From Oscillospiraceae bacterium (lineage in GTDB: Bacteria; Bacillota; Clostridia; Oscillospirales; Ruminococcaceae), in the NCBI GenBank assembly GCA_017399625.1, contig JAFQBT010000024.1:1-35006 (forward strand): a stretch of 35,006 nucleotides of DNA. The letters run 5' to 3'. This document shows, piece by piece, positions 661 through 19,070 of the stretch; positions within the stretch are counted from its first letter, which is position 1; each line of letters opens with the position of its first letter. Under the pieces are notes generated by a model. The model was not told where the DNA came from. It worked only from the letters and a program-made list of their open reading frames with translations, and did not search any database. Made by a program: the position numbers and the translations under genes.

Positions 661-671
661 AGGAGGTTTTT

Positions 672-1034
672 ATGGAAATTAAAACTATTAAAGAAATACG
701 AGATTATCATGAAAGTATCTTTCTCGGCTTAACACTTCGACAATTCGTTTTTTCTGTTATAGCAATTGCAGTTACCATTTTGCTGTATTTTCTGTTAAAA
801 CCAATTGTAGGAACGGAAATGGTTTCGTGGATGTGCATTCTTGGAGCTGTTCCTTTTGCGGTAATGGGGTTCTTTTCATATCACGGCATGACAGCAGAAA
901 AGTTTCTTCTGAATTTTATTAGAACAGAAATTCTTGAACCCCATATTCTTCTTTTTAGGCCGAACAATTATTATTTTGAAGCTATAAAAGAGAAAACAAA
1001 TAAAAAGAAAAGGAGGTCAAATCTCCGATGCTAA
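672..1034 (+). CDS. PrgI family mating-channel protein
   Basis: A 120-residue protein starting at the ATG six bases after AGGAGG (661-666). It begins MEIKTIKEIRDYHES, then has two membrane segments at about residues 23-43 and 48-68. An F-x-Y-H-G-M stretch and a basic lysine-rich tail follow. Size, the two early helices and the position between a VirB6-like and a VirB4-like gene match the PrgI family of conjugative type IV secretion loci. The role is probably as a small inner channel component. Its 3' end overlaps the VirB4 start by 7 bases, which suggests translational coupling. Confidence 0.85.
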   Translation: MEIKTIKEIRDYHESIFLGLTLRQFVFSVIAIAVTILLYFLLKPIVGTEMVSWMCILGAVPFAVMGFFSYHGMTAEKFLLNFIRTEILEPHILLFRPNNYYFEAIKEKTNKKKRRSNLRC

Positions 1035-3376: not shown

Positions 3377-3401
3377 ACTAAAATTTTAGGAGGAAAATAT
3401 T

Positions 3402-4202
3402 ATGAAAAAATCTACTGTTATGATGCTTATTGCGGTTATCCTTTCCGTTATTACAATTTCTTCCGGAATTGTCTTCTTCAGTCAGATGGCAGACGAAAAC
3501 AAAGCGGAACAGACCTATGAAAATCTTTCTTCTCTTGTATCCAGTGGTGTTGAAAACGAAGAAGATGTAACGATTGACCTCGAAGGAAATGTCGAGAACA
3601 AATACAACGGACCGACTTCCTATGAAAAATATCTTCCCATCTATGAGCAGAACGATGACTTTATCGCATGGGTTAAAATCGACGGAACTAAAATCGATTA
3701 TCCCGTAATGCAGACCGCAGATGATCCGAACTTCTATCTTAAACATGCTTTCGATAAAACCTACAGCGACTACGGTGTTCCGTACATCCAGGAGAACTGC
3801 CTTATCGACAACTGTGATAACATCGTTGTTTACGGACACAACATGAACAACGGTTCTATGTTCGCAGATCTCTGCAAATATGAAGACGAGGAATTCTATA
3901 AAGAGCACAAATATATTCAGTTCGATACTCTTCTTGATTACGGAAGATATGAGATCGTTGCAGTATTCAAAACAGTTGCGTATAACGATGCAGGATTTAA
4001 ATACTTTCAGTTTGTAAATGCGGAAAATGAAGTGGATTTCAACGAATATATCGAAACCTGCAAATCCTTGCAGCTTTATGATACCGGTGTTGATGCAGAA
4101 TATGGCGACAGACTTCTCACTCTCTCCACCTGCGAATATAGCCAAACTGATGGCAGAATTGTAGTTGTGGCGAAGCTTGTGGATAATATGCCGATGAGAT
4201 GA
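3402..4202 (+). CDS. srtB: class B sortase
   Basis: A 266-residue membrane-anchored transpeptidase. An N-terminal signal anchor covers about residues 6-28 and is followed by an acidic linker. The sortase fold carries the catalytic His146 in VVYGHNMNNGSMF, Cys244 in TLSTCEYSQ and Arg252 in TDGRIVVVA, all in order and intact. The NDDFIAWVKIDGTKIDYPVMQ segment is typical of class B. The enzyme cleaves a sorting signal and joins a surface protein to the cell wall or to another protein. It follows VirB4 by 25 bases with its own AGGAGG site, and similar conjugative elements carry a sortase here. Its substrate is not visible in the window. Confidence 0.92.
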   Translation: MKKSTVMMLIAVILSVITISSGIVFFSQMADENKAEQTYENLSSLVSSGVENEEDVTIDLEGNVENKYNGPTSYEKYLPIYEQNDDFIAWVKIDGTKIDYPVMQTADDPNFYLKHAFDKTYSDYGVPYIQENCLIDNCDNIVVYGHNMNNGSMFADLCKYEDEEFYKEHKYIQFDTLLDYGRYEIVAVFKTVAYNDAGFKYFQFVNAENEVDFNEYIETCKSLQLYDTGVDAEYGDRLLTLSTCEYSQTDGRIVVVAKLVDNMPMR

Positions 4203-4212
4203 TATAATTAAC

Positions 4213-4246
4213 AAAAGCACCCTTCAATAAACCGAAGGGTGCTTTT
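4213..4246. terminator. bidirectional intrinsic terminator
   Basis: A 13-bp perfect stem (4213-4225 with 4234-4246) has an 8-base loop and A/T ends on both sides. It lies between the convergent sortase and SDR genes, so it can end transcripts from either direction. It would separate the conjugation operon from the SDR/TetR cargo. Confidence 0.85.
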
Positions 4247-4285
4247 GCTTTTTGTCCATGGGGGTATTTATTATAGTTGTGGATT

Positions 4286-5023
4286 TTACATTGCGTCTCT
4301 GCCACCATCAATAAGATAGCACTGACCGGTAATGTAAGAAGCTTCATCGGATGCAAGGAAAAGAGCAAAGTTTGCCATTTCTTCTGGCTCTCCGATTCTT
4401 CCCATCGGAATCTGTGAATCAAGGAATTTTCGCAGTTCCTCGCTCATTCCGTCAATAATACCAGTATTGAATATTCCGGGACACACAGCATTTACACGAA
4501 TATTATCTTTAACATACTCTGCTGCAGCTTGTTTTGTCATCATAGCATTTGCACCCTTAGATGCGATATACGCAGGAGAACCAGGAGTAGCTTTGAAACT
4601 ACCGACTGAGGCCGTATTTACGATAGACCCTTTCCCATTTTCAAGCATAAGTTTAAGTCCACCTTGCATTACCATGAGATATCCGCGTACGTTAACGTTA
4701 AAAATCTTATCCCATGCCTCAAGAGGATATTCATGCATCCTTGCACGCGGACCACTGATTCCTGCATTGTTACAAAGAATATCAAGCTTTCCAAACTTTT
4801 CAACGCAAAGAGCATACATTGCGTCAACATCTTCCTGTTTGGAAACATCAGCAACAATACCCACTACGTCGCCGGCAATTTCTGCGGCGATTTCAGGCAT
4901 TTGGGGGTTGATGTCTGCGCCAACTACTTTTGCACCTTCTTTTGCAAAAAGTTTTGCCATTGCAAGGCCGAAACCGGAAGATGCACCGGTGATAACTGCT
5001 ACTTTTCCGTCAAGTCTGCCCAT
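4286..5023 (-). CDS. short-chain dehydrogenase/reductase (SDR)
   Basis: A 245-residue classical SDR. The nucleotide-binding motif TGASSGFG is at residues 12-19, CNNAG ends at 88, and the catalytic Ser139, Tyr152 and Lys156 are present (SPAYIASKG). The C-terminal GQCYLIDGG motif is also present. It should be a cytosolic NAD(P)-dependent oxidoreductase. The substrate cannot be read from sequence. The start is set at 5023 because a GGAGGAT site lies 7 bases upstream, while the longer frame to 5080 would begin inside the promoter. It is divergent from a TetR gene. The pair sits inside an otherwise standard transfer module and looks like cargo. Confidence 0.9.
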   Translation of the reverse strand: MGRLDGKVAVITGASSGFGLAMAKLFAKEGAKVVGADINPQMPEIAAEIAGDVVGIVADVSKQEDVDAMYALCVEKFGKLDILCNNAGISGPRARMHEYPLEAWDKIFNVNVRGYLMVMQGGLKLMLENGKGSIVNTASVGSFKATPGSPAYIASKGANAMMTKQAAAEYVKDNIRVNAVCPGIFNTGIIDGMSEELRKFLDSQIPMGRIGEPEEMANFALFLASDEASYITGQCYLIDGGRDAM

Positions 5024-5071
5024 AAAATAAATCCTCCAAGCTTGTTGAAATTTGTTTTTTGTTGTGATAAT

Positions 5072-5113
5072 ATTATACAAAATTCAGCAAAACTGTTAAA
5101 CCATCAACAGTTT
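5072..5113 (-). promoter_or_regulatory. promoter and 8-bp inverted repeat upstream of the SDR gene
   Basis: On the minus strand a perfect -10 TATAAT (5072-5077) lies 17 bp from a weak -35 TTTAAC (5095-5100). An inverted repeat, AAACTGTT (5090-5097) with AACAGTTT (5106-5113), covers the -35 box. This is a plausible repressor site for the divergent TetR protein. The -10 is clear, the operator role is inferred. Confidence 0.6.
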
Positions 5114-5132
5114 GCGAAGCGTTGCATTTCGC

Positions 5133-5153
5133 AACACTTTTTCAAAAAGTGTT
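5133..5153. promoter_or_regulatory. 21-bp palindrome upstream of tetR (candidate operator)
   Basis: Two perfect 10-bp arms, AACACTTTTT and AAAAAGTGTT, surround a single central C. The palindrome ends about 30 bases before the TetR start. It lies between divergent genes and is not followed by a T-run, so an operator is more likely than a terminator. A second short dyad, GTTGC(N5)GCAAC, lies just before it at 5121-5135. Confidence 0.6.
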
Positions 5154-5183
5154 CACTGATGTTTCAATCGGAGGTGCATTCTA

Positions 5184-5729
5184 ATGACTTACGCAGAAAA
5201 AAGAACACGAGCACATTTTCAAAATGCTTTTATAAAAATGATAAAAGAAGTCGGATATTCAAAAATCACCGTAAGAAAACTTGTGGCATACGCAGATTAC
5301 AACCGAACTTCTTTCTATCGCTATTATAATAACCTTGATGAACTTTCGGATGAAATTATAGATTTCATAGTTAAAACTTTCTACAACAGTTTTGAAAAAG
5401 AATATAAAGATTATGAAAAAACAACTTCACAAATATATGCCACTATTTATGAGAACAGGGACTATTTTGACCTTCTTGCATTAAATGACTCTATTCCACA
5501 ATTAAAAGAACAATTCTTAATGTGCATCGAAAAAATCCTTAATGAATTGATTATTGAAACCGACGAACACGAAATATGGAATAACGAATATATTTATTCA
5601 TTTTATGCACACGCTACATTTGGCATTATTGAAACTTGGATAAAAAACAATTATGCTCTTGATTATAAAACACTTGCAAAATATATTTACATGTCATATG
5701 ATAGACCATTTTATTATAAGGTAAAATAA
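5184..5729 (+). CDS. TetR/AcrR family transcriptional regulator
   Basis: A 181-residue protein. The N-terminal TetR helix-turn-helix covers about residues 8-55 (YSKITVRKLVAYADYNRTSFYRYY split over two helices). A variable all-helical ligand/dimer domain follows. The start is the ATG 7 bases after GGAGG (5170-5174). It is divergent from the SDR gene, with two dyads between them. The simplest reading is an autoregulated repressor that releases the SDR gene when it binds a small molecule. No ligand can be inferred. Confidence 0.85.
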   Translation: MTYAEKRTRAHFQNAFIKMIKEVGYSKITVRKLVAYADYNRTSFYRYYNNLDELSDEIIDFIVKTFYNSFEKEYKDYEKTTSQIYATIYENRDYFDLLALNDSIPQLKEQFLMCIEKILNELIIETDEHEIWNNEYIYSFYAHATFGIIETWIKNNYALDYKTLAKYIYMSYDRPFYYKVK

Positions 5730-5784
5730 GAGAATCCCGTTGGTTGGCGAGATTCTTAATGCAAGCATTTTTTATGAGGTATTT

Positions 5785-7647
5785 ATGAACAATATAAAAA
5801 CAAAAGAATCCGTTGTTGATAATTCAATAAAGGTTCTCGATAAATCAGCAAATCTTTCGGATAGAATGAAAGATTCATATATCCGAACAAAGCAAAGCGC
5901 CGAGCACAGCTATTACGCAGAAGAAAATTCTCCTGAAGAATATGCTTCCGATAAGGTTACAGAAACTTCCGAAGCTGTTGGATATGAAGCTGTTTATAAA
6001 TTCGATGAGCACGGAAGAAAAGGCTTTGAAACCACAAAAGGAAACATTATAAAAGCAAAAGAACATTTTGAGCACGGGGATAATCCCCGTGCTCATTCTG
6101 CTTCTTATAGCTCTGAATCAAAAGAAGACCGCCAATATACCGGCGGTCCTTCTCATAAAAGACATTATAATTCTCCTAAATCCAATCCACAGGAACAAGC
6201 AAGAGAATATGCTGTCAAGCAAGCGAAAAAACGAACCGAAAAAGTTTACGAACAACGTACAGCGGAATCTGTTGGAAATACCATTAAAACAAGAGAATCT
6301 GCAGAGTCTTCTGCAAATATTACAAAGAACGGAATCAAGACGAAATCAAGCCTTGCAAGTGCCAGCAAAACATCCGTGAAAGGCGGTAAAACAACGATTA
6401 AAACCGCGGAGCGAACTTCAAAAGCAACCGTCAAAACGGCAAAAACGGCGACCACAGCGTCCCATACAGTAGTTAAAGCACCGCAGACTATTGTTCAAGG
6501 AACGAAGAAAACAGTCAATGCAATTTATACCACAGGAAAGGCTGTTTTTGTCGCAGGCAAATCTATGGTGAAAGGGATAATTGCAGCCACAAAAGCACTT
6601 GTTGCGGCTATTGCCGCCGGAGGCTGGGTTGCTGTTATGATTATTGTAATTATTATGCTTATAGGACTTTTGGTTGGTTCTTCATTCGGCATTTTCTTTT
6701 CAAACGAAGATACAGGAGGAGAAACTATGCAGGATGTTATCCAAGAAATCAATGACGAGTATCTTGCGGAAATAGAGAAAATTAAGTTTGAGAACCCTTA
6801 TGATGTTCTTGAAATGTCCGGTTCCCGTGCTGTATGGAAAGAAGTTCTTGCCGTGTATGCGGTTAAAACTACAACAGATCCAATAAACGGTCAAGAAGTG
6901 GCAACTATAACAGATGAAAAGAAAGAGATCCTCCGTAAGATATTCTGGGAAATGAATGAGATTTCATTCCGCACAGAAGAGATAACCGAAACAGTTATAG
7001 TTGAATCCGACGATGGTAATGGAAATATTGTTGAAACCAAAACCACAGAAACAAGGACTTATCTTTTTATCACTGTAAGCCACAAAACCGCAGATGAAAT
7101 GGCAGAAGAGTATAACTTTGACCACAAACAAAAAGAACTGCTCGGCGCTTTACTTTCAGAAGAGAACGACGAGCTGTGGGCTATGGTTTTATATGGAATT
7201 GCTGGACAAAGCGATGATATGATAGTTGCCGTTGCTCAATCCCAAATCGGCAACGTAGGCGGGGATCCTTACTGGTCCTGGTATGGATTCAGCGAACGAG
7301 TTGACTGGTGTGCCTGTTTTGTCAGTTGGTGTGCAAACGAATGCGGATACATCGAAAACGGAATCATACCGAAGTTTGCAAGCTGTGCTATTGGTGTAAA
7401 CTGGTTCCAGTCACGTGGACAATGGGTGGATAGTTCTGCAGAACCTGTTCCCGGAATGATAATTTTCTTCGATTGGGATGAAGATATAACTGGCCAGGAC
7501 GGCAGGCCTAACCATGTTGGCATCGTCGAGAAGGTCGAAAACGGAATGGTTTATACTATTGAAGGCAACTCTGATGATACCTGCAGGAGAAGAAACTACA
7601 GTATTGGACATTATGAGATATTTGGGTATGGAGTTCAGGAATATTAA
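5785..7647 (+). CDS. CHAP-domain peptidoglycan hydrolase of the conjugation module
   Basis: A 620-residue membrane protein. Residues 1-275 are a long, charged, Lys/Thr/Ala-rich region with repeated KTxxKTA-like units. A membrane segment lies at about 279-306 (GGWVAVMIIVIIMLIGLLVG). A region of unknown fold follows, and a CHAP amidase/endopeptidase domain spans about 480-620. Catalytic Cys509 is in DWCACFVSWC and His577 in PNHVGIVEKV. It would open the cell wall locally for channel assembly, the VirB1/Orf14-like role. The start at 5785 has GAGGT 4 bases upstream. An earlier ATG at 5756-5760 or the frame start at 5740 is less likely. Two strong hairpins lie inside the coding sequence. Confidence 0.88.
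   Translation: MNNIKTKESVVDNSIKVLDKSANLSDRMKDSYIRTKQSAEHSYYAEENSPEEYASDKVTETSEAVGYEAVYKFDEHGRKGFETTKGNIIKAKEHFEHGDNPRAHSASYSSESKEDRQYTGGPSHKRHYNSPKSNPQEQAREYAVKQAKKRTEKVYEQRTAESVGNTIKTRESAESSANITKNGIKTKSSLASASKTSVKGGKTTIKTAERTSKATVKTAKTATTASHTVVKAPQTIVQGTKKTVNAIYTTGKAVFVAGKSMVKGIIAATKALVAAIAAGGWVAVMIIVIIMLIGLLVGSSFGIFFSNEDTGGETMQDVIQEINDEYLAEIEKIKFENPYDVLEMSGSRAVWKEVLAVYAVKTTTDPINGQEVATITDEKKEILRKIFWEMNEISFRTEEITETVIVESDDGNGNIVETKTTETRTYLFITVSHKTADEMAEEYNFDHKQKELLGALLSEENDELWAMVLYGIAGQSDDMIVAVAQSQIGNVGGDPYWSWYGFSERVDWCACFVSWCANECGYIENGIIPKFASCAIGVNWFQSRGQWVDSSAEPVPGMIIFFDWDEDITGQDGRPNHVGIVEKVENGMVYTIEGNSDDTCRRRNYSIGHYEIFGYGVQEY
6069..6148. repeat. two strong hairpins inside the CHAP coding sequence
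   Basis: The first is a perfect 12-bp stem, TGAGCACGGGGA (6069-6080) with its complement at 6084-6095, closed by a TAA loop. The second is GACCGCC (6127-6133) with GGCGGTC (6142-6148). They fall in the low-complexity linker region of the protein, where sequence constraint should be weak. They are more GC-rich than the surroundings. Function unknown. Confidence 0.6.
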
Positions 7648-7710
7648 AATTCGCACATTTGCCATTTACACCTCCTTATGCTAATCTCGGCATAAGGAGG
7701 TGTATTTTTT
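7643..7710 (+). promoter_or_regulatory. leader hairpin: terminator shape that also hides the Shine-Dalgarno
   Basis: A perfect 15-bp stem (7667-7681 with 7690-7704, 8-base loop) is followed by TTTTTT and then directly by the ATG at 7711. The 3' arm contains AAGGAGGTG, the ribosome binding site of the next gene, and the 5' arm contains CACCTCCTT. The folded RNA would both resemble an intrinsic terminator for the CHAP gene and block translation of the metallophosphoesterase. The same leader occurs before the gene at 11039. Confidence 0.8.
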
Positions 7711-8487
7711 ATGCCAAAGTTTTTTGTATTTAGCGATGTTCATGGGTTTTATGATGAATTTACAAAAGCTCTTGATGAAGCTGGTTATGATAAAAACAAT
7801 CCGGAACACTGGCTTATTTCTTGCGGAGATAACTTTGACCGTGGTGATGGTAATTCTGAAATGCTAGATTTTCTCTTAAATTCGGAACGAACTATTCTGA
7901 TTAAAGGCAATCATGAGGACATGCTAATGGATGCACTAAACAGAGGTTTTTCGGAACGCCATGATATACACAATGGTACTGACAAAACTATTTGGCAGCT
8001 TTCAAATGATTTGTGTGAATTTGATTCAGCTTATGATAGGGTTTCTCCTCTATTCAACAAAATGTTTAACTATTTTGAAACAGAAAAATTCATTTTTGTT
8101 CATGGCTGGATTGCTGTAAGTTATTTTGAAGATTATCCACATTGGGCAAGATACAGAACTTATAAATATAATCCCGAATGGAGAAATGCAGACGAAAAAG
8201 GTTGGGCTGAAGCGAGATGGCATAACGGTATGCAGCTTGCACATGAAGGAATTATCGAAGAAAATAAAACTATTGTATGTGGTCACTTTCACACCACTTG
8301 GGGTAAAGCAAGATACCATCGACCTGCCGGTGATTTGAAAGGCAATGATTATTACGAGTTTGGAGAAGGTGCAGATTTTTCTCCATATTACGACAAAGGT
8401 ATTATCGCTATTGATGGTTGTACTACTTATTCCGGTAGGGTTAATATTCTTGTAATTGAAGATGAGTTTTTAGGAAGGAATGGATAA
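7711..8487 (+). CDS. calcineurin-like metallophosphoesterase
   Basis: A 258-residue protein with the metallophosphoesterase motifs in order: SDVHG (residues 8-12), GDNFDRG (about 39-45), KGNHED (about 69-74), a histidine in FVHGW and GHFHTTWG near residue 191. These bind the two-metal centre of phosphoprotein or nucleotide phosphatases. The GDxxDRG form is closest to the bacterial PrpA/ApaH-type phosphatases. The substrate is unknown. Translation start is fixed by AAGGAGGTG in the leader hairpin. The stop overlaps the region where the second metallophosphoesterase begins, so the two are coupled. Confidence 0.88.
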   Translation: MPKFFVFSDVHGFYDEFTKALDEAGYDKNNPEHWLISCGDNFDRGDGNSEMLDFLLNSERTILIKGNHEDMLMDALNRGFSERHDIHNGTDKTIWQLSNDLCEFDSAYDRVSPLFNKMFNYFETEKFIFVHGWIAVSYFEDYPHWARYRTYKYNPEWRNADEKGWAEARWHNGMQLAHEGIIEENKTIVCGHFHTTWGKARYHRPAGDLKGNDYYEFGEGADFSPYYDKGIIAIDGCTTYSGRVNILVIEDEFLGRNG

Positions 8488-8488
8488 T

Positions 8489-9067
8489 ATGGGAAAAGTA
8501 TTTTTTACAGGAGATTTGCATTTCGGACATGAAAATGTTATAGCTTTTGATGATAGGCCATTCAAATCTGTTGAAGATATGGATGCGGAACTAATCAAAA
8601 GATGGAATGCAAAAGTTGGCAAGGATGATTTGGTTTATGTGCTTGGTGATATGATTTGGAAAACTAGAAACAATGATGCGCATAAAATAATAAAAAGCCT
8701 TAACGGTCGAATAATCCTTATTAAGGGAAATCATGATGGATTTCTTATTAATTCAAAGGTTAAAGAAGCTCTTGCAGATGTAAAAGACTATGACGATATT
8801 TGCGTTACATTGGAAGATGGAACTGTAAGACGTTGTATTCTCTCTCATTATTTTATTCCTATGTATAACGGACATCGGAATAAAGCAATTCATTTACATG
8901 CACACTCTCATTGTTCAAAAGAGGCTATTTATGAAGTCGAATTTGCAAATTATCTCAATAAAATTGGGTGCAAAAACGAAATATATAACGTAGGTTGTAT
9001 GTATTGGAACTATGAACCTGTTACACTGGACGAGATATTAGCACAAAAGCAACCGGCTACATCATAA
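8489..9067 (+). CDS. second metallophosphoesterase
   Basis: A 192-residue protein. The motifs GDLHFGHEN (about residues 8-16), VLGDM, KGNHDG and HLHAHSHC identify a calcineurin-like phosphoesterase of the shorter phage/element type. It is only distantly similar to the gene before it, so this is not a recent duplication. I chose ATG 8489 because AGGAAGGA lies 9 bases upstream. The in-frame ATG at 8480 overlaps the upstream stop region and has almost no spacing from that site. The two phosphatases form a bicistron. A role in nucleotide turnover or host signalling is possible but unproven. Confidence 0.85.
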   Translation: MGKVFFTGDLHFGHENVIAFDDRPFKSVEDMDAELIKRWNAKVGKDDLVYVLGDMIWKTRNNDAHKIIKSLNGRIILIKGNHDGFLINSKVKEALADVKDYDDICVTLEDGTVRRCILSHYFIPMYNGHRNKAIHLHAHSHCSKEAIYEVEFANYLNKIGCKNEIYNVGCMYWNYEPVTLDEILAQKQPATS

Positions 9068-11831: not shown

Positions 11832-11868
11832 AAAAGAAGGTTCTGCTTTTCAAACAGAACCTTCTTTT
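11832..11868. terminator. bidirectional terminator overlapping the yolD 3' end
   Basis: A 14-bp stem (11832-11845 with 11855-11868) has a 9-base loop and a T-run on the plus side. It serves the retropepsin-like gene. The right arm also encodes the last residues (KKEGSV) of the YolD-like protein on the minus strand, whose stop falls in the loop. Confidence 0.8.
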
Positions 11869-12278
11869 TTTATATCTGTAATCGTATTAATATCAAGTAT
11901 AGTTTCACCTTCAAACACCACTACTCCATTCACCTCATCAATCCTCCTCACTCTTCCGGTCACAGTAACATACTCCCCGCCCTCTTTCCTCTCATCCGGC
12001 TGAAAGTAGGTTATGGTAACTTCCGGACGCTCCTTTATGTGCTCCTGAATGAAGTTGAGTTTTGCGTTGAGTTCTTCCATCTCATACTCGCTCAGTTCGA
12101 TTCTGCGGTCGGTGAGCCTTGCGGTTTCCTCAATGGATTCTTCGTAACCGGTCAGCGCCGCAAACGGAGCGAACTGCGCCGCGCGGTTCATTCTTGACAT
12201 TCTCGGATGTTTCTTCGATGTAGGGTGTTGTCTGTTGATTACGTCGTCGTATCTGTGACATTCCATTCGGTCATTCAT
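11850..12278 (-). CDS. YolD-like protein
   Basis: A 142-residue protein with the YolD-like pattern: RMSRMNRAAQFAPFAAL (about residues 26-42), a helical middle rich in Glu, then a beta-rich C-terminus VTITYFQPDERKEGGEYVTV and VVFEGETILDINTI. YolD-like proteins are usually encoded beside Y-family polymerases (YqjW/UvrX type) in Firmicutes and their elements, and probably assist or regulate them. The start overlaps the stop of the small Cys-rich gene by 4 bases (ATGA), so the two are coupled. The matching polymerase gene lies 5 kb upstream on the same strand, separated by inserted modules. Confidence 0.85.
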   Translation of the reverse strand: MNDRMECHRYDDVINRQHPTSKKHPRMSRMNRAAQFAPFAALTGYEESIEETARLTDRRIELSEYEMEELNAKLNFIQEHIKERPEVTITYFQPDERKEGGEYVTVTGRVRRIDEVNGVVVFEGETILDINTITDIKKEGSV

Positions 12279-12478
12279 GCAGAATCACCCCGTTTTCTCT
12301 TTGCGTTGAGGATCATGCACCCATAGTAACATTTCCATCCCTGTTCTTTTGGTCTGCGGCAGATCCCCAATAGTTCACAGTGCCAGCAACCCTTTGGCAG
12401 ACCCTCGTACTTTTTCTTCTCCTCTCTGTATTCTTTACTATCCCCAAAAATTATCCCCAGGAACCTTTTCACTAACAT
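12275..12478 (-). CDS. small Cys-rich protein of the Y-polymerase operon
   Basis: A 67-residue protein of unknown function. It has a basic N-terminus (MLVKRFLGIIFG) and then a cysteine cluster: Cys31, His33, Cys34, Cys40, Cys50 and Cys54, which could bind a metal. The start follows GGGAGG by 7 bases. The 4-base overlap with the YolD-like gene and the typical polymerase/small-protein/YolD order support a real gene. Its first nine codons and leader are duplicated 1.8 kb away, at 14295-14322, in a dead copy. Confidence 0.7.
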   Translation of the reverse strand: MLVKRFLGIIFGDSKEYREEKKKYEGLPKGCWHCELLGICRRPKEQGWKCYYGCMILNAKRKRGDSA

Positions 12479-12570
12479 GGTAAAGCCTCCCGGTTATTAA
12501 ATTAAAGTATCTTAACTTGATTTTTCTTCCGCAAAAGATTATTCTTAATAGCGGAAAGGCCGTGATTTTT
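12451..12570. repeat. junction repeat copy A (120 bp)
   Basis: This segment aligns without gaps to 14295-14414 at about 90% identity by eye. It runs from inside the small Cys-rich gene, across its ribosome binding site, through the TetR promoter to the TetR start codon. The similarity continues into both TetR coding sequences. Confidence 0.85.
12517..12556 (+). promoter_or_regulatory. promoter and dyad upstream of the first array TetR
   Basis: TTGATT (12517-12522) and TATTCT (12540-12545), 17 bp apart, form a plausible promoter. The inverted repeat TTCCGC (12527-12532) with GCGGAA (12551-12556) brackets the -10. Both are kept in the second copy near 14371-14400, with one arm reduced to five pairs. 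Autoregulation by the TetR protein is inferred. Confidence 0.5.
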
Positions 12571-13098
12571 ATGAATTCAAAAGAAAAAATCATTGAAAAA
12601 TATATTGAACTGGTGCTCAGAAAGAAATCTCCCGAGATTTCCGTTACGGAAATCTGCGAAGAAACTGGAATCTGCAGAAAAACATTTTATCGCCATTTCC
12701 GCGACCGTTACGCCATAATCGAGGATATTTTTGTAAACGATATCGAAGTTCCTCTTCGTATGTGCCTTCGGATAAACGCAGGTAACGATTATTATGTTCA
12801 GATGATTTATCAAAGTTTTCTTACAAAAAAGGATTTTTATATCATTGCCATTCGCGAAGAAGGAAACAACTCCCTTTTTGAAAATATCATCTCAAAACTT
12901 ATGGTGCTCAACTACGAAGAACTTCCGCAGATAGGCTGGAACGGCGCGGAACTTGAGTATCTTTCATACAAATTTGCAACGACACAAGCCTTTCTTCTCC
13001 GGAAATGGATCCGCGGCGGAATGAAGGAATCCCCAGAATTTATGGCTCGAATTTATTTAACAGGCCTTCCTGACAGGAGTATGCTACATAATCCATGA
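12571..13098 (+). CDS. TetR family regulator (array module 1)
   Basis: A 175-residue TetR-type protein starting MNSKEKIIEKYIELVL. The helix-turn-helix is in ISVTEICEETGICRKTFYRH at about residues 24-43. The rest is a helical ligand domain with DYYVQMIYQSFLTKKDFYIIAI. It is a close paralogue of the TetR at 14415 over its whole length, ending with the same SPEFMA(R/K)IYL motif. I chose ATG 12571 over the upstream frame because the duplicated leader ends exactly there. It lies directly before a zinc dehydrogenase in the same direction. It probably represses that gene and itself. Confidence 0.85.
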   Translation: MNSKEKIIEKYIELVLRKKSPEISVTEICEETGICRKTFYRHFRDRYAIIEDIFVNDIEVPLRMCLRINAGNDYYVQMIYQSFLTKKDFYIIAIREEGNNSLFENIISKLMVLNYEELPQIGWNGAELEYLSYKFATTQAFLLRKWIRGGMKESPEFMARIYLTGLPDRSMLHNP

Positions 13099-13100
13099 AA

Positions 13101-13119
13101 TGTGTCTTTTAATGACACA
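13101..13119. promoter_or_regulatory. 19-bp dyad after the TetR stop (candidate operator)
   Basis: TGTGTC and GACACA flank a 7-base centre, immediately after the TetR stop. A dyad of the same length and shape (TGTGnnTTTTnnTGnCACA) follows the paralogous TetR at 14945-14963. There is no T-run, so a terminator is unlikely. Confidence 0.5.
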
Positions 13120-13169
13120 TACTCTCGTTAATGTCCGTTATATTCTTGATGCTTCAATGTTATACTTGT

Positions 13170-13200
13170 GTTAAACCGTAAAAATATTAACGGATTTAAC
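13170..13200. promoter_or_regulatory. inverted repeat just upstream of the zinc dehydrogenase
   Basis: GTTAAACCGT (13170-13179) and ACGGATTTAAC (13190-13200) form a 10-bp inverted repeat with one bulged A and a 10-base centre. It ends 2 bases before the AAGGAGG of the dehydrogenase gene, a good place for a repressor site. Confidence 0.5.
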
Positions 13201-13216
13201 TCAAGGAGGCAATTTT

Positions 13217-14242
13217 ATGGAAGGCATGATGAAATGCGGTATCTACAAAGGTATCAAACAAGTTGCAATTGAAGAAAGACCTATTCCCCAGATCGGACCG
13301 AAAGACGTTCTCGTAAAAGTTCTCAGAGCAGGTATCTGCGGTTCCGACACCGGCGCATATCTCCACGGCGGTATGTATTACGGCGTTGCAGACAACGCTG
13401 AATTCGGTCACGAAATGGTCGGTAAAATCGTTGAAAAAGGCGAAGAAGTCGAAGGTATCGAACTCGAAGACATTGTTTTCGTTGAACCCACCTGCGCAAA
13501 GAAAAAAGGCATTTATGTTGCAGATATGTGCGGCGGTTTCTCCGAATATGTAAACGTTGAAGACGCAAAAGTAAACCATAACATTTATATCTGGAACAAA
13601 GACGTAAACCTTGATGAAGCAGTTCTTGCAGAACCTCTCGCAGTAGGTACCAACGGCGTTATCATGGAAGAACCCGGCCTTGACGAAAAAGTTGTTGTTC
13701 TCGGCGCAGGCACCATCGGTCTTTCCGCAGCAGCAGGACTCATCGCAAGAGGTCTTAAAAACGTTGCTGTTGTTGATATCAACGAAACCCGCCTTGAAAT
13801 GGCAAAACAGCTCGGCGCAATCGCAATCAACGGAAAAGACGGCGATCTTCATGAACAGCTTATCAACGTTTTCGGTTCTTTCCCGGGATATCATCCCCAG
13901 CCCGACGTTGATATGTACGTTGATGCAGCAGGCGCACCCGCTCTTCTTTCCCAGACCTTTAACTTTGCGCGCGAAGGCAGCAGATACGTTGTTCTTTCCG
14001 TTTATGGCGGAAACCTTGAAATCAACCCCGGCATGTTCATCAGAAGCCAGGCAAAAATCTATGGTTCCCGCGGATATATGCCCAAAACCATTGTTGAAGT
14101 CATGGACCACATCACCAACAAAAAGACCCCTATCGGCCTTCTCGTAACCAAAAAATACAAACCTTCCGAATTCGTTGAAGCAATGGAAGAAGCCGCTTCC
14201 GGCAGACAGGTAAAAGTTGTTATCGACTACGAAATGGAATAA
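13217..14242 (+). CDS. zinc-dependent medium-chain alcohol/polyol dehydrogenase
   Basis: A 341-residue MDR-superfamily enzyme of the threonine dehydrogenase/sorbitol dehydrogenase group. Catalytic zinc ligands are visible as Cys41 in AGICGSD and His65-Glu66 in FGHEM. The Rossmann motif VVLGAGTIGL begins near residue 160, followed by VVDINETRLEMA. The four-cysteine structural zinc loop is not present in its usual form. The substrate should be a secondary alcohol or polyol, but which one is unknown. AAGGAGG lies 7 bases upstream. The codons are markedly more C-rich at third positions than in the neighbouring accessory genes, as in highly expressed genes. Confidence 0.88.
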   Translation: MEGMMKCGIYKGIKQVAIEERPIPQIGPKDVLVKVLRAGICGSDTGAYLHGGMYYGVADNAEFGHEMVGKIVEKGEEVEGIELEDIVFVEPTCAKKKGIYVADMCGGFSEYVNVEDAKVNHNIYIWNKDVNLDEAVLAEPLAVGTNGVIMEEPGLDEKVVVLGAGTIGLSAAAGLIARGLKNVAVVDINETRLEMAKQLGAIAINGKDGDLHEQLINVFGSFPGYHPQPDVDMYVDAAGAPALLSQTFNFAREGSRYVVLSVYGGNLEINPGMFIRSQAKIYGSRGYMPKTIVEVMDHITNKKTPIGLLVTKKYKPSEFVEAMEEAASGRQVKVVIDYEME

Positions 14243-14261
14243 TAAATACCCCAATCTGCGT

Positions 14262-14294
14262 AAGAAAGTCCCCGGCTCTGCCGGGGATTTTCTT
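14262..14294. terminator. terminator T1 after the zinc dehydrogenase
   Basis: A 15-bp stem around CCCCGGC-TCT-GCCGGGG ends in TTTTCTT. The same hairpin type, preceded by AAATACCCC, follows the SDR genes at 15832 and 17431. The one at 17431 abuts the Y-polymerase stop, so this may be a copied polymerase terminator. Confidence 0.85.
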
Positions 14295-14322
14295 TTATCC
14301 CCAGTAACCTTTTCACTGACAT
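14295..14322 (-). pseudogene. remnant of the small Cys-rich gene's 5' end
   Basis: On the minus strand an ATG at 14322 with a GGGAGG leader encodes MSVKRLLGI, matching MLVKRFLGI of the intact gene at 12478. It then runs into terminator T1. The remaining 58 codons, including the cysteine cluster, are absent. Confidence 0.75.
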
Positions 14323-14414
14323 GGTAAAGCCTCCCAGTTGTTAAATTAAAATACCACAACTTGATTTTTCTTCCGCAAAAGGTTATCCTTAATAACGGAA
14401 AGGCCGTGATTTTT
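14295..14414. repeat. junction repeat copy B (120 bp)
   Basis: Counterpart of 12451-12570. It joins directly onto terminator T1 on its left and runs into the second TetR start codon on its right. Confidence 0.85.
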
Positions 14415-14936
14415 ATGAATTCAAAAGAAAAAATCATCGAAAAATATATCGAACTGGTGCTCGAAAAAAGAACACCGGATATTTCCGTTACTGAAATCTG
14501 CGAAGAACTGGGTATCGGCAGAAGGACTTTCTATAACCATTTCCGCGACAGATATGCCATTATCGAAGAAATATATCTCAGGGATATCGAACTTCCCATC
14601 CGTATGAGTCTTAACGTAAACGCTGTAAACGAATATTACGTGCAGACTGTTTATCAGAGCTTTTTGTTAAAAAAAGATTTTTACTGCATCGCTATAAAAG
14701 AGGAAGGTGCAAACTCCCTCTATGAAAACATCGTAAAAAGACTCTCTATTCTGACCGAAGAATCGCTTACAAAAATGGGAAAAAGCGAAAAAGAAAAATA
14801 CTATCTCTCATACAAATTTGCTGTAACTATGGCTTCTCTTATAAATCTCTGGATGAAAAACGGAATGCAGGAATCTCCGGAATTCATGGCAAAAATATAT
14901 CTTGAAACCCTTCCCCACAGAGAATTGGCACAATAG
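14415..14936 (+). CDS. TetR family regulator (array module 2)
   Basis: A 173-residue paralogue of the TetR at 12571. It has the same first 16 residues, the helix-turn-helix in ISVTEICEELGIGRRTFYNH, the same EYYVQTVYQSFLLKKDFY block and the same end motif. Divergence is spread through the ligand domain. That fits a duplication followed by adaptation to a different ligand or to a different partner gene. The gene downstream in the same direction is an SDR rather than a zinc dehydrogenase. So the regulator was duplicated while the enzyme beside it differs in family. Confidence 0.85.
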   Translation: MNSKEKIIEKYIELVLEKRTPDISVTEICEELGIGRRTFYNHFRDRYAIIEEIYLRDIELPIRMSLNVNAVNEYYVQTVYQSFLLKKDFYCIAIKEEGANSLYENIVKRLSILTEESLTKMGKSEKEKYYLSYKFAVTMASLINLWMKNGMQESPEFMAKIYLETLPHRELAQ

Positions 14937-14944
14937 TTTTTATC

Positions 14945-14969
14945 TGTGCATTTTTTTGGCACACTGTGC
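14945..14969. promoter_or_regulatory. dyads after the TetR stop, upstream of SDR (candidate operator)
   Basis: TGTGC (14945-14949) pairs with GCACA (14959-14963), giving a 19-bp dyad like the one at 13101. GCACA-C-TGTGC (14959-14969) forms a second, tighter palindrome sharing a half-site. A TATAAT -10 for the SDR gene follows at 15005-15010. Confidence 0.5.
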
Positions 14970-15042
14970 GAAATATGCATCTTCTTCCTGTTATTTTTTT
15001 GATATATAATTAATGTATCCAAAAAACAAGGAGGAAAACACT

Positions 15043-15795
15043 ATGTTTGATATTAACGGAAAAGTTGCTGTTGTTACCGGCGGCGCAAACGGAATCGGTC
15101 TTGCAACCGTAAAAGCAATTCTTGCAAAGGGCGGTCATCCGATTATCGCCGACTATAACGAAGAAGCAGGCAAAAGAGAAGCCGAAGCTCTTGGAATTCC
15201 TTTTTACAAAATCGATATTTCCGACGAAGAAAAAGTAAAAGAGATGTTTGAAGATATCATCGCAAAAAATGAACGTCTCGATATTCTTGTAAACGGCGCA
15301 GGCATCGGCGGAAACAGCAGACCCATCACCGCTCCGGACAGCCTTGAACTTGCTAAAAAATCCTTCAACGTAAACGTCCACGGAACTCTCAACTGCTGCA
15401 AATACGCAATTGCACAGATGCAGAAACAGGGTGGAAACTGTGCAGTTGTAAACGTAGCTTCCATTCTCGGCGTTGTAAGTAATCCCAACAGCATCGGCTA
15501 CAGCGGAAGCAAACATGCTGTAATCGGTATCACCAAATCCCTTGCTCTTGAAAACGCCCCTATGAATATCCGTGTAAACGTTCTTTGCCCCGGCTTTACC
15601 GATACCGCAATGTTCAACAAAGACCTTTACGGCGAACAGATCTATAATTATATTCTCGGTCTCCAGCCTCTTTCCAAAGGAACCGGAAGAGCTGCAAATG
15701 TTGATGAACAGGCACATGCAATCATCTTCATGATTGAAAACAGCTACCTCACCGGACAGAGCATTATCGTTGACGGCGGTTACACTGTTCAGTAA
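15043..15795 (+). CDS. short-chain dehydrogenase/reductase (array module 2)
   Basis: A 250-residue classical SDR. The cofactor motif TGGANGIG is at residues 12-19. NGAG at 84-87 replaces the usual NNAG. The catalytic Ser140, Tyr153 and Lys157 (IGYSGSKHAV) are intact. LTGQSIIVDGGYTVQ closes the protein. It is an NAD(P)-dependent oxidoreductase of unknown substrate. The start at 15043 has AAGGAGG 8 bases upstream. It probably forms a small regulon with the TetR before it and ends at terminator T2. Codon use is biased as in the zinc dehydrogenase. Confidence 0.9.
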   Translation: MFDINGKVAVVTGGANGIGLATVKAILAKGGHPIIADYNEEAGKREAEALGIPFYKIDISDEEKVKEMFEDIIAKNERLDILVNGAGIGGNSRPITAPDSLELAKKSFNVNVHGTLNCCKYAIAQMQKQGGNCAVVNVASILGVVSNPNSIGYSGSKHAVIGITKSLALENAPMNIRVNVLCPGFTDTAMFNKDLYGEQIYNYILGLQPLSKGTGRAANVDEQAHAIIFMIENSYLTGQSIIVDGGYTVQ

Positions 15796-15831
15796 TAAAC
15801 TTTTCCGCGTTCTAAATAAATACCCCTTAAA

Positions 15832-15863
15832 GGAAAGTTCCCGGCTTCTGTCGGGAGCTTTCT
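15832..15863. terminator. terminator T2 between SDR and TetR
   Basis: A stem of GAAAGTTCCCGGC with GTCGGGAGCTTTC is followed by TTTTTT. It is related to T1 and T3 and is preceded by the same AAATACCCC. It lies between a plus-strand SDR and a minus-strand TetR and can serve both. Confidence 0.8.
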
Positions 15864-15872
15864 TTTTTATAT

Positions 15873-15894
15873 AGTAAAGCCTCCCGGTCATTAA
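15873..15894. repeat. third junction remnant (22 bp)
   Basis: AGTAAAGCCTCCCGGTCATT followed by AA matches the leader of the small Cys-rich gene (12479-12500) with two differences. It directly follows terminator T2, as copy B follows T1. Confidence 0.7.
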
Positions 15895-15897
15895 TTT

Positions 15898-16482
15898 TTA
15901 TTTTACGAGCATCTTTTTATAGAAGAATTTCTGCATAAGTTCTGCAAACTCCTTTGGGTCAACATCTTTTCCTGAAGAAAAAATATTGTAAATAAGCCCA
16001 AATACTCCGTTTATTGCAAAAAGATTCATCACAAACAGTTCTTCTTCGTTATCAAAAGCAATGGTTTCGTCTTTTTCCCATTTTTTATAATCGTCAAATG
16101 ATGTCATCCATTTTGTTTCTTCTTCCATAAGTTTTTCAAGAAGAATCGAACATCTGTCGCTTCTGTAAAAAATCATAAAAAGTCTTTTATTATCAAAAAA
16201 ATATTTTGTTTGTTCTATAAACATTTTTCCCATTTCATAACTTGATGAAAACATTTGCTTAGGAGATATAATTTTTGAAAAGTTTTCAAAAAAATCGTTT
16301 TCAAGTTTTTCATAAAGGTCATATATATCTTCAAAGTTATGATAAAAAGTTGCTCTGTTGATACCGGCTTTTTCACAAAGTTCTTTAACTTTGATTTTAT
16401 GTAAAGGTTTTTCTTCAAGCAGTTCTATCATTGTTTCTTTAACAAGCTTCTGAGTACATCTTTTTCTGTAATCCAATGCCAT
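15898..16482 (-). CDS. TetR family regulator (array module 3)
   Basis: A 194-residue TetR-type protein. The helix-turn-helix is in IKVKELCEKAGINRATFYHN at about residues 30-49. The ligand domain is helical and aromatic-rich. It is not a close paralogue of the two other array TetRs and has a more A/T-rich gene. AAGGAGT lies 5 bases before the start. It is divergent from the SDR at 16638, with four CWGTTTA repeats between them. It is probably the repressor of that SDR gene. Its stop lies three bases from the 22-bp junction remnant. Confidence 0.85.
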   Translation of the reverse strand: MALDYRKRCTQKLVKETMIELLEEKPLHKIKVKELCEKAGINRATFYHNFEDIYDLYEKLENDFFENFSKIISPKQMFSSSYEMGKMFIEQTKYFFDNKRLFMIFYRSDRCSILLEKLMEEETKWMTSFDDYKKWEKDETIAFDNEEELFVMNLFAINGVFGLIYNIFSSGKDVDPKEFAELMQKFFYKKMLVK

Positions 16483-16501
16483 AAAAAACTCCTTATTAAC
16501 A

Positions 16502-16610
16502 CAGTTTATCGTTTTTTGTTTAACAACTTACTTTTACAAAAATACTGTTTATTGCTTATTTACACAACAAATTATACAATATATTTGCAGTTTATTCAAC
16601 ATACTGTTTA
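16502..16610. promoter_or_regulatory. four CWGTTTA repeats and the SDR promoter
   Basis: CWGTTTA occurs at 16502, 16545, 16588 and 16604. The first three are exactly 43 bp apart, about four helical turns. A promoter TTGCTT (16552-16557)-17 bp-TACAAT (16575-16580) for the plus-strand SDR lies between repeats two and three. The repeats are likely TetR half-sites. Confidence 0.5.
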
Positions 16611-16637
16611 ATATTTTTCATGGAGGTTGTTAATATT

Positions 16638-17390
16638 ATGAGATTTGATGGTAAAGTAGCAGTAGTAACCGGTGCCGCTTCCGGCGTTGGCAAAGTAGTA
16701 GCAGAACTTTTTGTTAAAGAAGGCGCAAAAGTAGTTGGCGTTGACCTTAAAGAAGGTTCCATGACAGAAATGAAAGCAGAACTCGGCGAAAACTTTGCTG
16801 AATATTACGGAGATATCTCCCTTCGTGAAACCAACGAAGGCATGATCGACAAAGCCGTCGAACTTTTCGGAGAATGTGATATCCTCATCAACAATGCCGG
16901 AATTTATGATATGGTAATGCCCCTCGATCATGTAACCGACGCAATGTGGGATAAGGTTATTAAAATCGATCTTTACGGACCTATGTACGCAAGCAGATAT
17001 TTCACCGCTCTTAAACTTAAAGAGGGCAAACCCGGAAGCGTTGTTTCCACCGCTTCTGTTGGCGGTGCTGCTCTTCCTGTTTGCGGTGGTGTCTCCTATG
17101 CAGCGGCAAAAGCAGCTCTTATTCAGATGACTCGTCATGCCGCATACTGCTACCGTGATAACGGTGTCCGTTTCAACGCTATTGCTCTCGGTGGCTGTGC
17201 AACCGGAATCCAGGCAACTATTACCGAACCCGATACAGATGGCCTCCGCATCGCAAAAATCATTAACAGCGATACCAGAATCTGCCAGCCCATTGATGCA
17301 GCCAATGTTATTCTCCATCTTGCATCCGATGAAGCAAAAGCAGTTACTGGTTCCATCGTCAATGTTGACAGCGGCTGGTCCTGCATTTGA
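16638..17390 (+). CDS. short-chain dehydrogenase/reductase (array module 3)
   Basis: A 250-residue classical SDR. TGAASGVG is at residues 11-18, NNAG at 85-88, and catalytic Ser140, Tyr154 and Lys158 (VSYAAAKAAL) are intact. The ending is IVNVDSGWSCI. It is clearly a different SDR subtype from those at 4286 and 15043. The start at 16638 follows TGGAGG by 11 bases. The ATG at 16620 has no ribosome binding site. The substrate is unknown. The gene ends at terminator T3, which abuts the polymerase stop on the other strand. Confidence 0.9.
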   Translation: MRFDGKVAVVTGAASGVGKVVAELFVKEGAKVVGVDLKEGSMTEMKAELGENFAEYYGDISLRETNEGMIDKAVELFGECDILINNAGIYDMVMPLDHVTDAMWDKVIKIDLYGPMYASRYFTALKLKEGKPGSVVSTASVGGAALPVCGGVSYAAAKAALIQMTRHAAYCYRDNGVRFNAIALGGCATGIQATITEPDTDGLRIAKIINSDTRICQPIDAANVILHLASDEAKAVTGSIVNVDSGWSCI

Positions 17391-17430
17391 TTTCAACAGA
17401 CAAAAACCTTTAAATACCCCCAAATCCACA

Positions 17431-17465
17431 AAAGAAAGTCCTCGGCTTTGCCGGGGATTTTCTTT
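17431..17465. terminator. terminator T3, shared by SDR and Y-polymerase
   Basis: A 16-bp stem around CCTCGGC-TTT-GCCGGGG. It touches the polymerase stop codon (17466-17468, minus strand) and follows the plus-strand SDR, so it works for both. T1 and T2 look like copies of it. Confidence 0.85.
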
Positions 17466-18989
17466 TTACGCCCTGTGTCCTCCAATCTGCCCGTTTCTGT
17501 CTATAGTAGTGCCGCCTTCCTCAAAGTTCATTCCCTTGAGAATGGCGTTCTTGCCGTAGCGCTTCTTTATCTCCGCAATAGCCTTCTGCTGCCGCTTTTC
17601 TTTTTCGAAAGCGGCTTTTTCTTTTGCCAGTTTTTCTTCTTTGGCAGCAAAATCATCGAAAAAGTTCAGCTGCTGGAACGGAGATTCCTCCTGAGCACCC
17701 TCCGGCAGAACATGGCAGGCAACAATGTTCACTCTGCGTGCTAAAAGGTTCTTGTCGGTAATTTCATCAAAAAGCTTGAGCACCGATTCGGTTATCAGCT
17801 TCGATGATGAAGTGTATCTGCCGATATTTGCCGTACCGTGGGCGTGTTTCGGTACTTTTCTTCCGTAATAGTCGGTTTTGATCTCACCTTTGTAGCTGTT
17901 TGCGCTGTTATCGTTCGCAAGATTTTCAATATCATATCCAACAGTGAGCACTATCTGATCCGTGACAAGTCCTTTCTCCACCAAATCAAGAGCAAGAAGA
18001 TCTGCCATCTCTTTGATGATGAGCACCGTTTCTTCGTATTTGTAAGGTCTGTGAAGCACTTGTCCTGAACCGAGACTGTTGTTTTCGGGTCTGTAGGCCT
18101 TTATTTCAGCAATTGTGCAGGGTTCCCAACCCCATGCATGGTCTATGAGCAGTTCCGCATTGACTCCGAAGAGTTTATAGAGCAGTTCTTCATTATGATA
18201 GTTCTCCGGCCAGCCTACCGAGCACCGGGCGATGTCTCCCATGGTAAACATTTCGTTTGCTTCAAGTTTTTGAGCATAGCCGTGGCCTATCCTCCAGAAA
18301 TCAGTAAGGGGCTTATGATCCCAGAGTTGTTTTCGGTAGCTTATCTCGTCAAGTTCAGCTATCCTCACTCCGTCCTTATCCGCAGGCATTTTCTTTGCGA
18401 CTATATCCATAGCCACCTTTGCAAGGTACATATTCGTTCCTATGCCCGCAGTTGCGGTTATTCCCGTGGTTTTGAGCACGTCCCTTATCATCGTCATTGC
18501 AAACTCATGCGCATTGAGCACGGAGTGCTTCAGATATGGAGTGAGGTCTATAAAAACCTCATCAATTGAGTAAACGTGGATATCTTCCGGAGCGATATAT
18601 TTGAGATAGATGTTATATATCCTTGTGCTGTATTCGATATACAGTGCCATTCTCGGCGGTGCAACAATGTAATCAAGTTCCAGCTGAGGGTTCTTTTCTA
18701 ATTCAAGCGCATGAAAGGACTTCCTTGCAAACATCTTTCCAGGAGTTTTCCTTAATCTTTCTGCGTTTACCCACTTAACCTTCTGCACTACCTCAAAAAG
18801 TCTTGCTCTGCCCGGTATGCCGTGTTTCTTCATTGAAGGCGAAACCGCAAGGCAGATGGTCTTTTCCGTTCTGGATTTATCTGCAACCACAAGGTTAGTG
18901 GTCAGTGGGTCCAATCCTCTCTCGACGCATTCCACCGAAGCATAAAAGGATTTGAGGTCTATGCAAAGATATGTTTTCTCCTTCTCCAT
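17466..18989 (-). CDS. Y-family DNA polymerase (UmuC/YqjW type)
   Basis: A 507-residue translesion polymerase. The N-terminal catalytic motif is YLCIDLKSFYASVECVERG with Asp11, and the palm acidic pair is in VYSIDEVFIDLTPY. TAGIGTNMYLAKVAMD and the helix-hairpin-helix-like region GIGHGYAQKLEANEMFTMGD follow. A little-finger region and a charged Lys/Glu/Ala coiled coil of about 50 residues end the protein. It would copy damaged DNA after SOS induction. A LexA box overlaps its promoter. Its usual partners (small protein, YolD-like) lie 5 kb downstream across inserted dehydrogenase modules, so cotranscription is probably lost. Confidence 0.9.
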   Translation of the reverse strand: MEKEKTYLCIDLKSFYASVECVERGLDPLTTNLVVADKSRTEKTICLAVSPSMKKHGIPGRARLFEVVQKVKWVNAERLRKTPGKMFARKSFHALELEKNPQLELDYIVAPPRMALYIEYSTRIYNIYLKYIAPEDIHVYSIDEVFIDLTPYLKHSVLNAHEFAMTMIRDVLKTTGITATAGIGTNMYLAKVAMDIVAKKMPADKDGVRIAELDEISYRKQLWDHKPLTDFWRIGHGYAQKLEANEMFTMGDIARCSVGWPENYHNEELLYKLFGVNAELLIDHAWGWEPCTIAEIKAYRPENNSLGSGQVLHRPYKYEETVLIIKEMADLLALDLVEKGLVTDQIVLTVGYDIENLANDNSANSYKGEIKTDYYGRKVPKHAHGTANIGRYTSSSKLITESVLKLFDEITDKNLLARRVNIVACHVLPEGAQEESPFQQLNFFDDFAAKEEKLAKEKAAFEKEKRQQKAIAEIKKRYGKNAILKGMNFEEGGTTIDRNGQIGGHRA

Positions 18990-19028: not shown

Positions 19029-19070
19029 ATTATATATCCAAAAATCGCAAAGTCAAGAACATATGTTCTT
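19029..19070 (-). promoter_or_regulatory. LexA (SOS) box on the Y-polymerase promoter
   Basis: GAACATATGTTC (19057-19068) fits the Firmicutes LexA consensus GAAC-RNRY-GTTC and extends to a 16-bp palindrome. On the minus strand TTGACT (19051-19056) and TATAAT (19029-19034) are 16 bp apart. The box overlaps the -35 side of the promoter, so LexA binding would repress the polymerase until DNA damage. Confidence 0.85.

Follow-up and report, generated by a model that had tools for sequence, protein, structure and literature searches.

The junction downstream of a Y-family DNA polymerase gene as a very probable cargo hotspot of a putative conjugative element in Oscillospiraceae

Gene cassettes of integrons follow one another head to tail, and a conserved hairpin lies 3' of genes that are unlike each other. 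In the SXT/R391 integrative and conjugative elements (ICEs), unlike cargo occupies the same bases of a conserved conjugative backbone at the hotspots HS1-HS5; the study leaves open whether site preference reflects mechanism or selection, and its authors also suspect residues of earlier insertions at the hotspots (PMC2791158). In the YqjW/UvrX-YolD operons a polymerase gene is followed by a YolD-like gene (PMC6511836). Here we describe a locus with likenesses to all of these in Oscillospiraceae bacterium GCA_017399625.1 (G000), a 2.1-Mb draft genome of 146 contigs. It lies within 35,006 nt of contig JAFQBT010000024.1 (the window, labelled G000:C7; other genomes and contigs are labelled likewise). 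As judged from its genes, the likeliest reading of the window is that it is part of a conjugative element, most probably an ICE. It contains an operon of a polymerase gene, a small gene and a YolD-like gene that is interrupted by three modules, each with a TetR-type regulator, a dehydrogenase and a hairpin. We consider it very likely that the junction between the polymerase stop codon and the small gene is an intergenic cargo hotspot of the element, filled by horizontally moving TetR-dehydrogenase-hairpin modules.

By the features tested, the site appears to work like the intergenic cargo hotspots of conjugative elements and would belong with them. Unlike the SXT/R391 sites, it lies inside a polymerase-small gene-YolD operon with a gap of 23 bp, in a genus with Oscillospiraceae as named relatives, and its cargo, often TetR-dehydrogenase-hairpin, is stacked three deep with stubs of the target gene. 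The order of polymerase and YolD-like gene is that of the YqjW/UvrX-YolD operons, with an SOS-type box upstream; in contrast to those operons (PMC6511836), a 67-aa Cys-rich gene lies between the two and the operon is cut by cargo. The head-to-tail units with a hairpin 3' of unlike genes are similar to integron cassettes, from which they differ in having their own regulators, in ends that are not fixed and in that no integrase over cut-off was found in 15 genomes. Three features are unusual: the site interrupts a short repair operon, its regulator-dehydrogenase-hairpin units are stereotyped, and stubs keep a record of the stacking. Among the literature matches listed, none was recognised by title or start of abstract as describing this site or TetR/SDR cargo.

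The operon is encoded on the minus strand. Its Y-family DNA polymerase (17466..18989; Pfam IMS 1.7e-26, IMS_C 6.6e-8) is UvrX/YqjW-like by its YolD partner and has copies at 89-94% amino acid identity on G000:C67, G013:C7, G013:C64, G014:C45 and G005:C5. The YolD-like gene (11850..12278; Pfam YolD 6.2e-6) scores 26.7 bits, just under the cut-off of 27.5. The small Cys-rich gene (12275..12478) encodes a 67-aa protein that is possibly a further partner of the polymerase and for which no match was found in Pfam, PADLOC or PHROG at E<=0.001. It is present as six copies in 4 of 396 genomes of the family, all in one of 126 genera; a weak match in G002 (46% over 30 aa, E 8e-4) was left out of the site count. 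In a named collection it occurs at five loci, all from Oscillospiraceae metagenome-assembled genomes (MAGs), the four with a stated source being from deer. Four of these loci appear to be the copies of G013 (two), G014 and G005, and the fifth, L067 of MAG SIG653, is additional. No relatives were found among viral contigs and plasmids.

Seven sites with the small gene, the six copies in four genomes of the genus and contig L067 of SIG653, were compared. Two are empty. Four filled sites are fully seen and each has its own content, and a fifth filled site is truncated by the contig end. At the empty sites, G000:C67 (in the window's own genome) and G013:C64, 23 bp separate stop and start codon. 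The site of G014:C45 holds 417 bp with a 123-aa open reading frame (ORF), that of G013:C7 1382 bp with a 387-aa GTPase, and that of G005:C5 1559 bp with another TetR/SDR pair (SDR, short-chain dehydrogenase) and its own hairpin; in the window three modules are stacked over 4987 bp, from the polymerase stop codon (17466) to the small-gene start (12478). On L067 a TetR gene stands against the small-gene leader and the contig ends there. On the polymerase side the inserts abut the stop codon, and on the other side they stop immediately ahead of ACCGGGAGG (ACCAGGAGG in G013:C7), the ribosome-binding region of the small gene, and these boundaries agree within a few bases across sites. In the window the intact leader (12479..12515) marks the right boundary, in a comparison that took in two empty and four occupied sites. 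Cargo enzymes or ORF are antiparallel to the operon in all four fully seen filled sites, and the flanking genes are intact in 6/6 copies, with a polymerase of 504-508 aa, a small gene of 67-68 aa and a YolD frame that reads 137-151 aa from the first aligned residue without a stop. The cargo hotspot proposed by the first-pass annotation is borne out by this comparison of relatives. As supporting evidence it had named an uninterrupted operon in some relatives, with a single hairpin next to the small gene, and different dehydrogenase modules in others; the uninterrupted operon and the differing cargo were found, the single hairpin at the empty sites was not. The GTPase of G013:C7 (L035 6085-7248) has a weak PADLOC match only (LeoBC, 2.8e-5).

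In the window the order is TetR1-MDR-T1, TetR2-SDR1-T2, TetR3/SDR2-T3. Modules 1 and 2 read regulator, enzyme, hairpin, TetR3 is divergent from SDR2, and all three enzymes are antiparallel to the operon. Module 1 has the regulator TetR1 (12571..13098, plus strand; Pfam TetR_C_8 1e-7) and a zinc-dependent MDR alcohol dehydrogenase (ADH; 13217..14242, plus; ADH_zinc_N 2.9e-18, ADH_N 1.3e-13); module 2 has TetR2 (14415..14936, plus; TetR_C_8 7.1e-10) and SDR1 (15043..15795, plus; adh_short 1.2e-48); module 3 has TetR3 (15898..16482, minus; TetR_N 2.1e-7) and SDR2 (16638..17390, plus; adh_short_C2 2.3e-46). Polymerase, YolD-like gene, small gene and the three intervening modules all lie where the first-pass annotation had placed them, and the enzymes are unlike, as it had said, namely a zinc MDR and two SDRs. 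An inverted repeat, TTCCGC-N18-GCGGAA (12527-12556), lies over the likely -10 region of TetR1 and is a possible TetR operator.

Each module ends in a AATACCCC box with a GC-rich stem: T1 at 14240..14302, T2 at 15814..15872 and T3 at 17408..17472, which reaches the polymerase stop codon (all plus strand). A covariance model of the hairpin, built without any window sequence, was searched against 34 sources (389 kb). T3 (72.4 bits), T1 (65.1 bits) and T2 (46.5 bits) are its three best matches in the window, the hairpin of G005:C5, also outside the model, reached 46.3 bits, and the next best match beyond these four scored 40.5. Against this background T1 and T3 clearly form one family, to which T2 belongs more weakly; the relatedness claimed earlier is upheld. 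In the 15 genomes of the genus at least 16 places score at least 52 bits (10 of them in the model), after which the scores drop to 46 bits and a falling background; some places may have been missed, since 150 of about 1,900-4,000 first-look candidates per genome were scored. Of these 16 strongest places, 11 follow an intact dehydrogenase gene, two a dehydrogenase remnant and three other ORFs, one being a 163-aa ORF and the remaining two presumably sigma-factor-like and MmgE/PrpD-like, names we assign from the sequence. The hairpins of one family thus follow unlike enzymes, MDR as well as SDR. At the junction itself the model gave no match at E up to 1 in either empty site or in the sites with the GTPase and the 123-aa ORF, and a role as polymerase terminator, as proposed at first, is rejected. 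From its absence at empty sites and the prevalence of strong copies after dehydrogenase genes, the hairpin is placed outside the polymerase operon. A general terminator of the genus is mostly rejected too, with 16 strong places among the candidates scored in 15 genomes.

T1 and T2 are each followed by a remnant of the small gene, as the first-pass annotation had noticed. The stub after T1 (14297..14353) comprises leader and first codons and equals the small-gene 5' region at 52 of 57 positions, and the leader stub after T2 (15871..15897) has one mismatch to the 21-mer GTAAAGCCTCCCGGTTATTAA. For both stubs the observed score was reached in 0 of 2000 dinucleotide shuffles, compared with 107 to 1797 of 2000 for six control stretches beside other hairpins or modules. 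The 21-mer occurs at three places in the window at <=3 mismatches (12480, 14324, 15874), and 100 shuffles gave none. At the T1 joint the stub, as read from the sequences, tracks the small gene through CTGGGGATAA and then appears to continue as hairpin sequence of the kind seen beside a polymerase stop. The overlap read at this joint is a few bases, and at the T2 joint little or none. Stubs were also seen elsewhere in the genus. An array on G013:C2 has a hairpin at its start and a small-gene stub at its end, next to TetR2 (0/2000 shuffles), and on G010:C15 an older-looking stub follows the hairpin (0/2000); no small gene was found near either.

The modules themselves occur outside the element. 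A search of 100 genomes, the own one included, gave matches to TetR2 in 4 (E<=1e-15), to SDR1 in 8 (E<=1e-50) and to the MDR in 6 (E<=1e-60), all within one genus, and no second match to SDR2 at E<=1e-50. The TetR2-SDR1 pair is found on G013:C2 (99/98% amino acid identity) and G005:C161 (92/98%), the TetR1-MDR pair on G010:C15 (95/93%) and G005:C190 (84/96%), and these module-bearing stretches gave no match to small gene, YolD or polymerase at E<=1e-5. Most of the module genes compared are closer across species than secA. Nucleotide identities between G000 and G013 are 96.7% for TetR2, the closest of all in this respect, and 93.2% for SDR1 at 87.3% for secA; between G000 and G005 93.1% for SDR1, 91.3% for ADH and 87.7% for TetR2 at 86.4% for secA; and between G000 and G010 89.0% for ADH and 87.9% for TetR1 at 83.7% for secA. 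In a tree of 11 regulators, from which TetR3 and the TetR of G005:C5 were left out and in which the SIG653 regulator is half-length, window TetR2 groups with the G013 and G005 copies (98/100) and TetR1 is nearest to the G010 regulator by path. The best tree holds three changes of place, at least two of them forced by well supported branching. The SIG653 regulator in turn matches the second regulator of the array on G013:C2 at 88.8% DNA identity over 260 nt.

The region in front of secA differs in a similar manner. It carries TetR-SDR-hairpin in G006, the same together with TetR2-SDR1 and a 163-aa ORF with a second hairpin in G005, and about 100 bp of SDR end plus hairpin in G013 and G003; the secA loci of G000, G014 and G010 had no AATACCCC box and no hairpin match at E up to 0.1. 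Hence modules come and go at other places too, and the hairpin can stay as a scar. The G013:C2 array is flanked by a direct repeat of about 210 nt (L102 7390-7598, 10993-11200) that ends in a terminator-like hairpin. At least part of this repeat occurs in 14 of the 15 genus genomes, often more than once and often clustered; it was not found in Rfam at gathering scores, and G014 has one copy beside the trigger-factor gene with no array. It may be a small-RNA gene family, and the two copies at the array could also be a target duplication.

Presence and absence of cargo, the joints and the spread of the modules are read directly from these comparisons; the direction of transfer between the element and other places would be compatible with the data either way. 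Modules may pass between element and chromosome, and illegitimate or unequal recombination may stack them at the site by joining the hairpin, or polymerase-side, end of one unit to the leader and first-codon, or small-gene-side, end of another. Such joining would leave the stubs seen after T1 and T2 and, when repeated, would yield the order pol-[hairpin, module, leader]n-small. The slight overlap at the T1 joint and the little or none at T2 are more in keeping with illegitimate joining or unequal exchange than with a fixed cassette end. Unequal exchange would require that one cell contain two elements with filled sites; the element region is present twice in G000, on C7 and C67.

This second copy also speaks for an alternative in which ordinary homologous recombination, acting in the polymerase and YolD genes on either side, swapped modules after one or a few rare founding insertions, the array arising by unequal crossing-over between two such elements within a single cell. 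We give this a substantial chance, although somewhat below even. It is favoured further by G013:C64, whose DNA is 93-96% identical to window positions 1-4196 and 85% in the polymerase, a non-parallel pattern that fits mosaicism, yet by itself it leaves unexplained why G013, G005 and G010 carry these modules outside the element and how four unlike cargos first arrived at identical bases. A bolder form of the hotspot reading sees the site as a dock: regulator-enzyme-hairpin units bounded by a hairpin and a small-gene stub would shuttle between chromosome and element, needing no dedicated recombinase, and build up arrays like those of integrons. The chromosomal G013:C2 array is bounded in this way, and each of its two modules has its counterpart in the cargo of a different element (window module 2 and the SIG653 regulator); we nonetheless regard it as unlikely. 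A true integron-like system, with the hairpin as attC-like site of a dedicated recombinase, would account for one hairpin family behind unlike enzymes (MDR, SDR) and for head-to-tail units, but is highly improbable. The integron integrase model TIGR02249 was over cut-off in none of the 15 genus genomes, and its sub-cut-off matches appeared in 15/15 of these and in 14/14 control genomes, which is what general tyrosine recombinases would give. No recombinase family was found in the 32 window proteins scanned except for a weak resolvase-HTH (helix-turn-helix) match within TetR1, two of the four fully seen filled sites have no hairpin, and stub ends differ between places. An attC site has a GTTRRRY core with a RYYYAAC partner; within 70 nt of T1-T3 one such core was seen, in the stub after T1, and no partner. 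On the integrase and attC results we reject an integron.

A 300-nt direct repeat (85%) between modules 1 and 2 would suit a local duplication, in which one TetR module doubled in place and one copy exchanged its enzyme, and the first-pass annotation had taken the two regulators for duplicates. This is scarcely credible. TetR1 and TetR2 are 65% identical to each other (TetR3 is unlike both) and 95% and 99% identical to the regulators of G010 and G013, where each keeps the same enzyme partner, and these closer cross-species regulators contradict the duplication. Of the earlier idea that modules enter or duplicate at the junction, entry stands and duplication falls, the repeated parts being the target-flank stub and the hairpin. 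That the split operon is an artefact of draft assembly also has very little to commend it: repeated hairpins and leaders could mislead an assembler, but in independent assemblies a hairpin adjoins the polymerase stop (G005:C5) and a TetR gene adjoins the small-gene leader (L067).

Several points nevertheless weigh against the hotspot as proposed. The window contig is a draft assembly whose repeats could be misjoined; G005:C5 and L067 support the outer joints, and G013:C2 supports the inner ones (T1, T2) only in part. The inner module of that array has no stub on reading (286/2000 shuffles), and the candidate stub at G005:C161 is weak (39/2000). The sites compared are few (seven), and the precise boundaries may reflect selection only; site preference may be due either to a mechanism or to selection for the few bases at which neither gene is harmed. 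TetR1 of G000 and G005 is, at 80.6%, below secA at 86.4%, the sole exception among the window pairs, and this pair gives no sign of recent transfer. In the regulator tree most inner branches are weak and the placements of TetR1 and SIG653 poorly supported. No relaxase or integrase was found among the 32 window proteins scanned, the whole genome having been searched for neither, so that the element is presumed rather than seen to be integrative. Finally, no convincing promoter was detected upstream of the small gene, where 15 promoter-like sites compare with 15.0 in shuffles.

This last point bears on the operon itself. A palindrome, GAACATATGTTC (19057..19068), which we take to be a LexA-type box, lies 79 nt upstream of the polymerase start and is perfect in 6/6 polymerase copies examined, at -79 or -80. 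Perfect GAACN4GTTC matches number three in the whole window, and the 250 nt ahead of the small gene had none in the six copies or in L067. In outgroup polymerase loci (15 fetched, 59-66% amino acid identity) YolD follows 2-118 bp downstream in 14, as measured between alignment ends, and was not found at the remaining one. The YolD-family partner thus stands beside the polymerase directly in these 14 loci and via the small gene at the two empty sites, and from the outgroup loci the uninterrupted order is probably the older. At empty sites small gene and YolD can share the polymerase promoter, whereas at filled sites antiparallel genes lie between, with hairpins in addition in the window and G005:C5. 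Insertion would separate small gene and YolD from the LexA-controlled polymerase promoter and may leave them dependent on read-through or on cargo-borne sequence. Since antiparallel cargo or hairpins intervene and no convincing new promoter was seen, uncoupling of YolD from the damage response is a prediction.

The conjugative genes lie at 25..9067 (plus strand; Pfam) and include PrgI, a TraG/VirB4-type ATPase, a sortase, a CHAP gene and further genes; PrgI and the TraG-type ATPase are above the Pfam cut-off, and a TrbL_2 match (E 0.0085) is below it. Integration and conjugative transfer are predictions from gene content. Parts of this stretch of DNA are common to G000:C67, G013:C64 (up to 96%) and G005:C5. 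No element backbone was detected by DNA comparison on the contigs G013:C7 and G014:C45, so for these two copies identity of the element is a presumption. The CHAP-to-YolD stretch (7648-11849) is variable as well: it spans about 4.2 kb here, whereas the corresponding matches in G000:C67 lie about 0.6 kb apart. Among its genes are metallophosphoesterases, a DUF6809 gene and an AAA ATPase with HTH. A GmrSD-type restriction gene (19346-21121; Pfam GmrSD_N 3.5e-36, GmrSD_C) lies just upstream of the polymerase. A cluster of FHA, PP2C, Ser/Thr kinase and VWA genes with a LytTR response regulator occupies 24248-33347, and its kinase is similar to phage-defence kinases in PADLOC.

The hotspot offers a natural series of empty site, one cargo, stacked cargo and the same cargo elsewhere in the genomes of other species. 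It shows the uptake of metabolic genes by gut conjugative elements outside resistance islands, and its joints, resolved to the base, make the route of recombination testable. Cargo uptake is predicted to uncouple the YolD-type partner from the damage-induced polymerase promoter, which would be a measurable regulatory cost.

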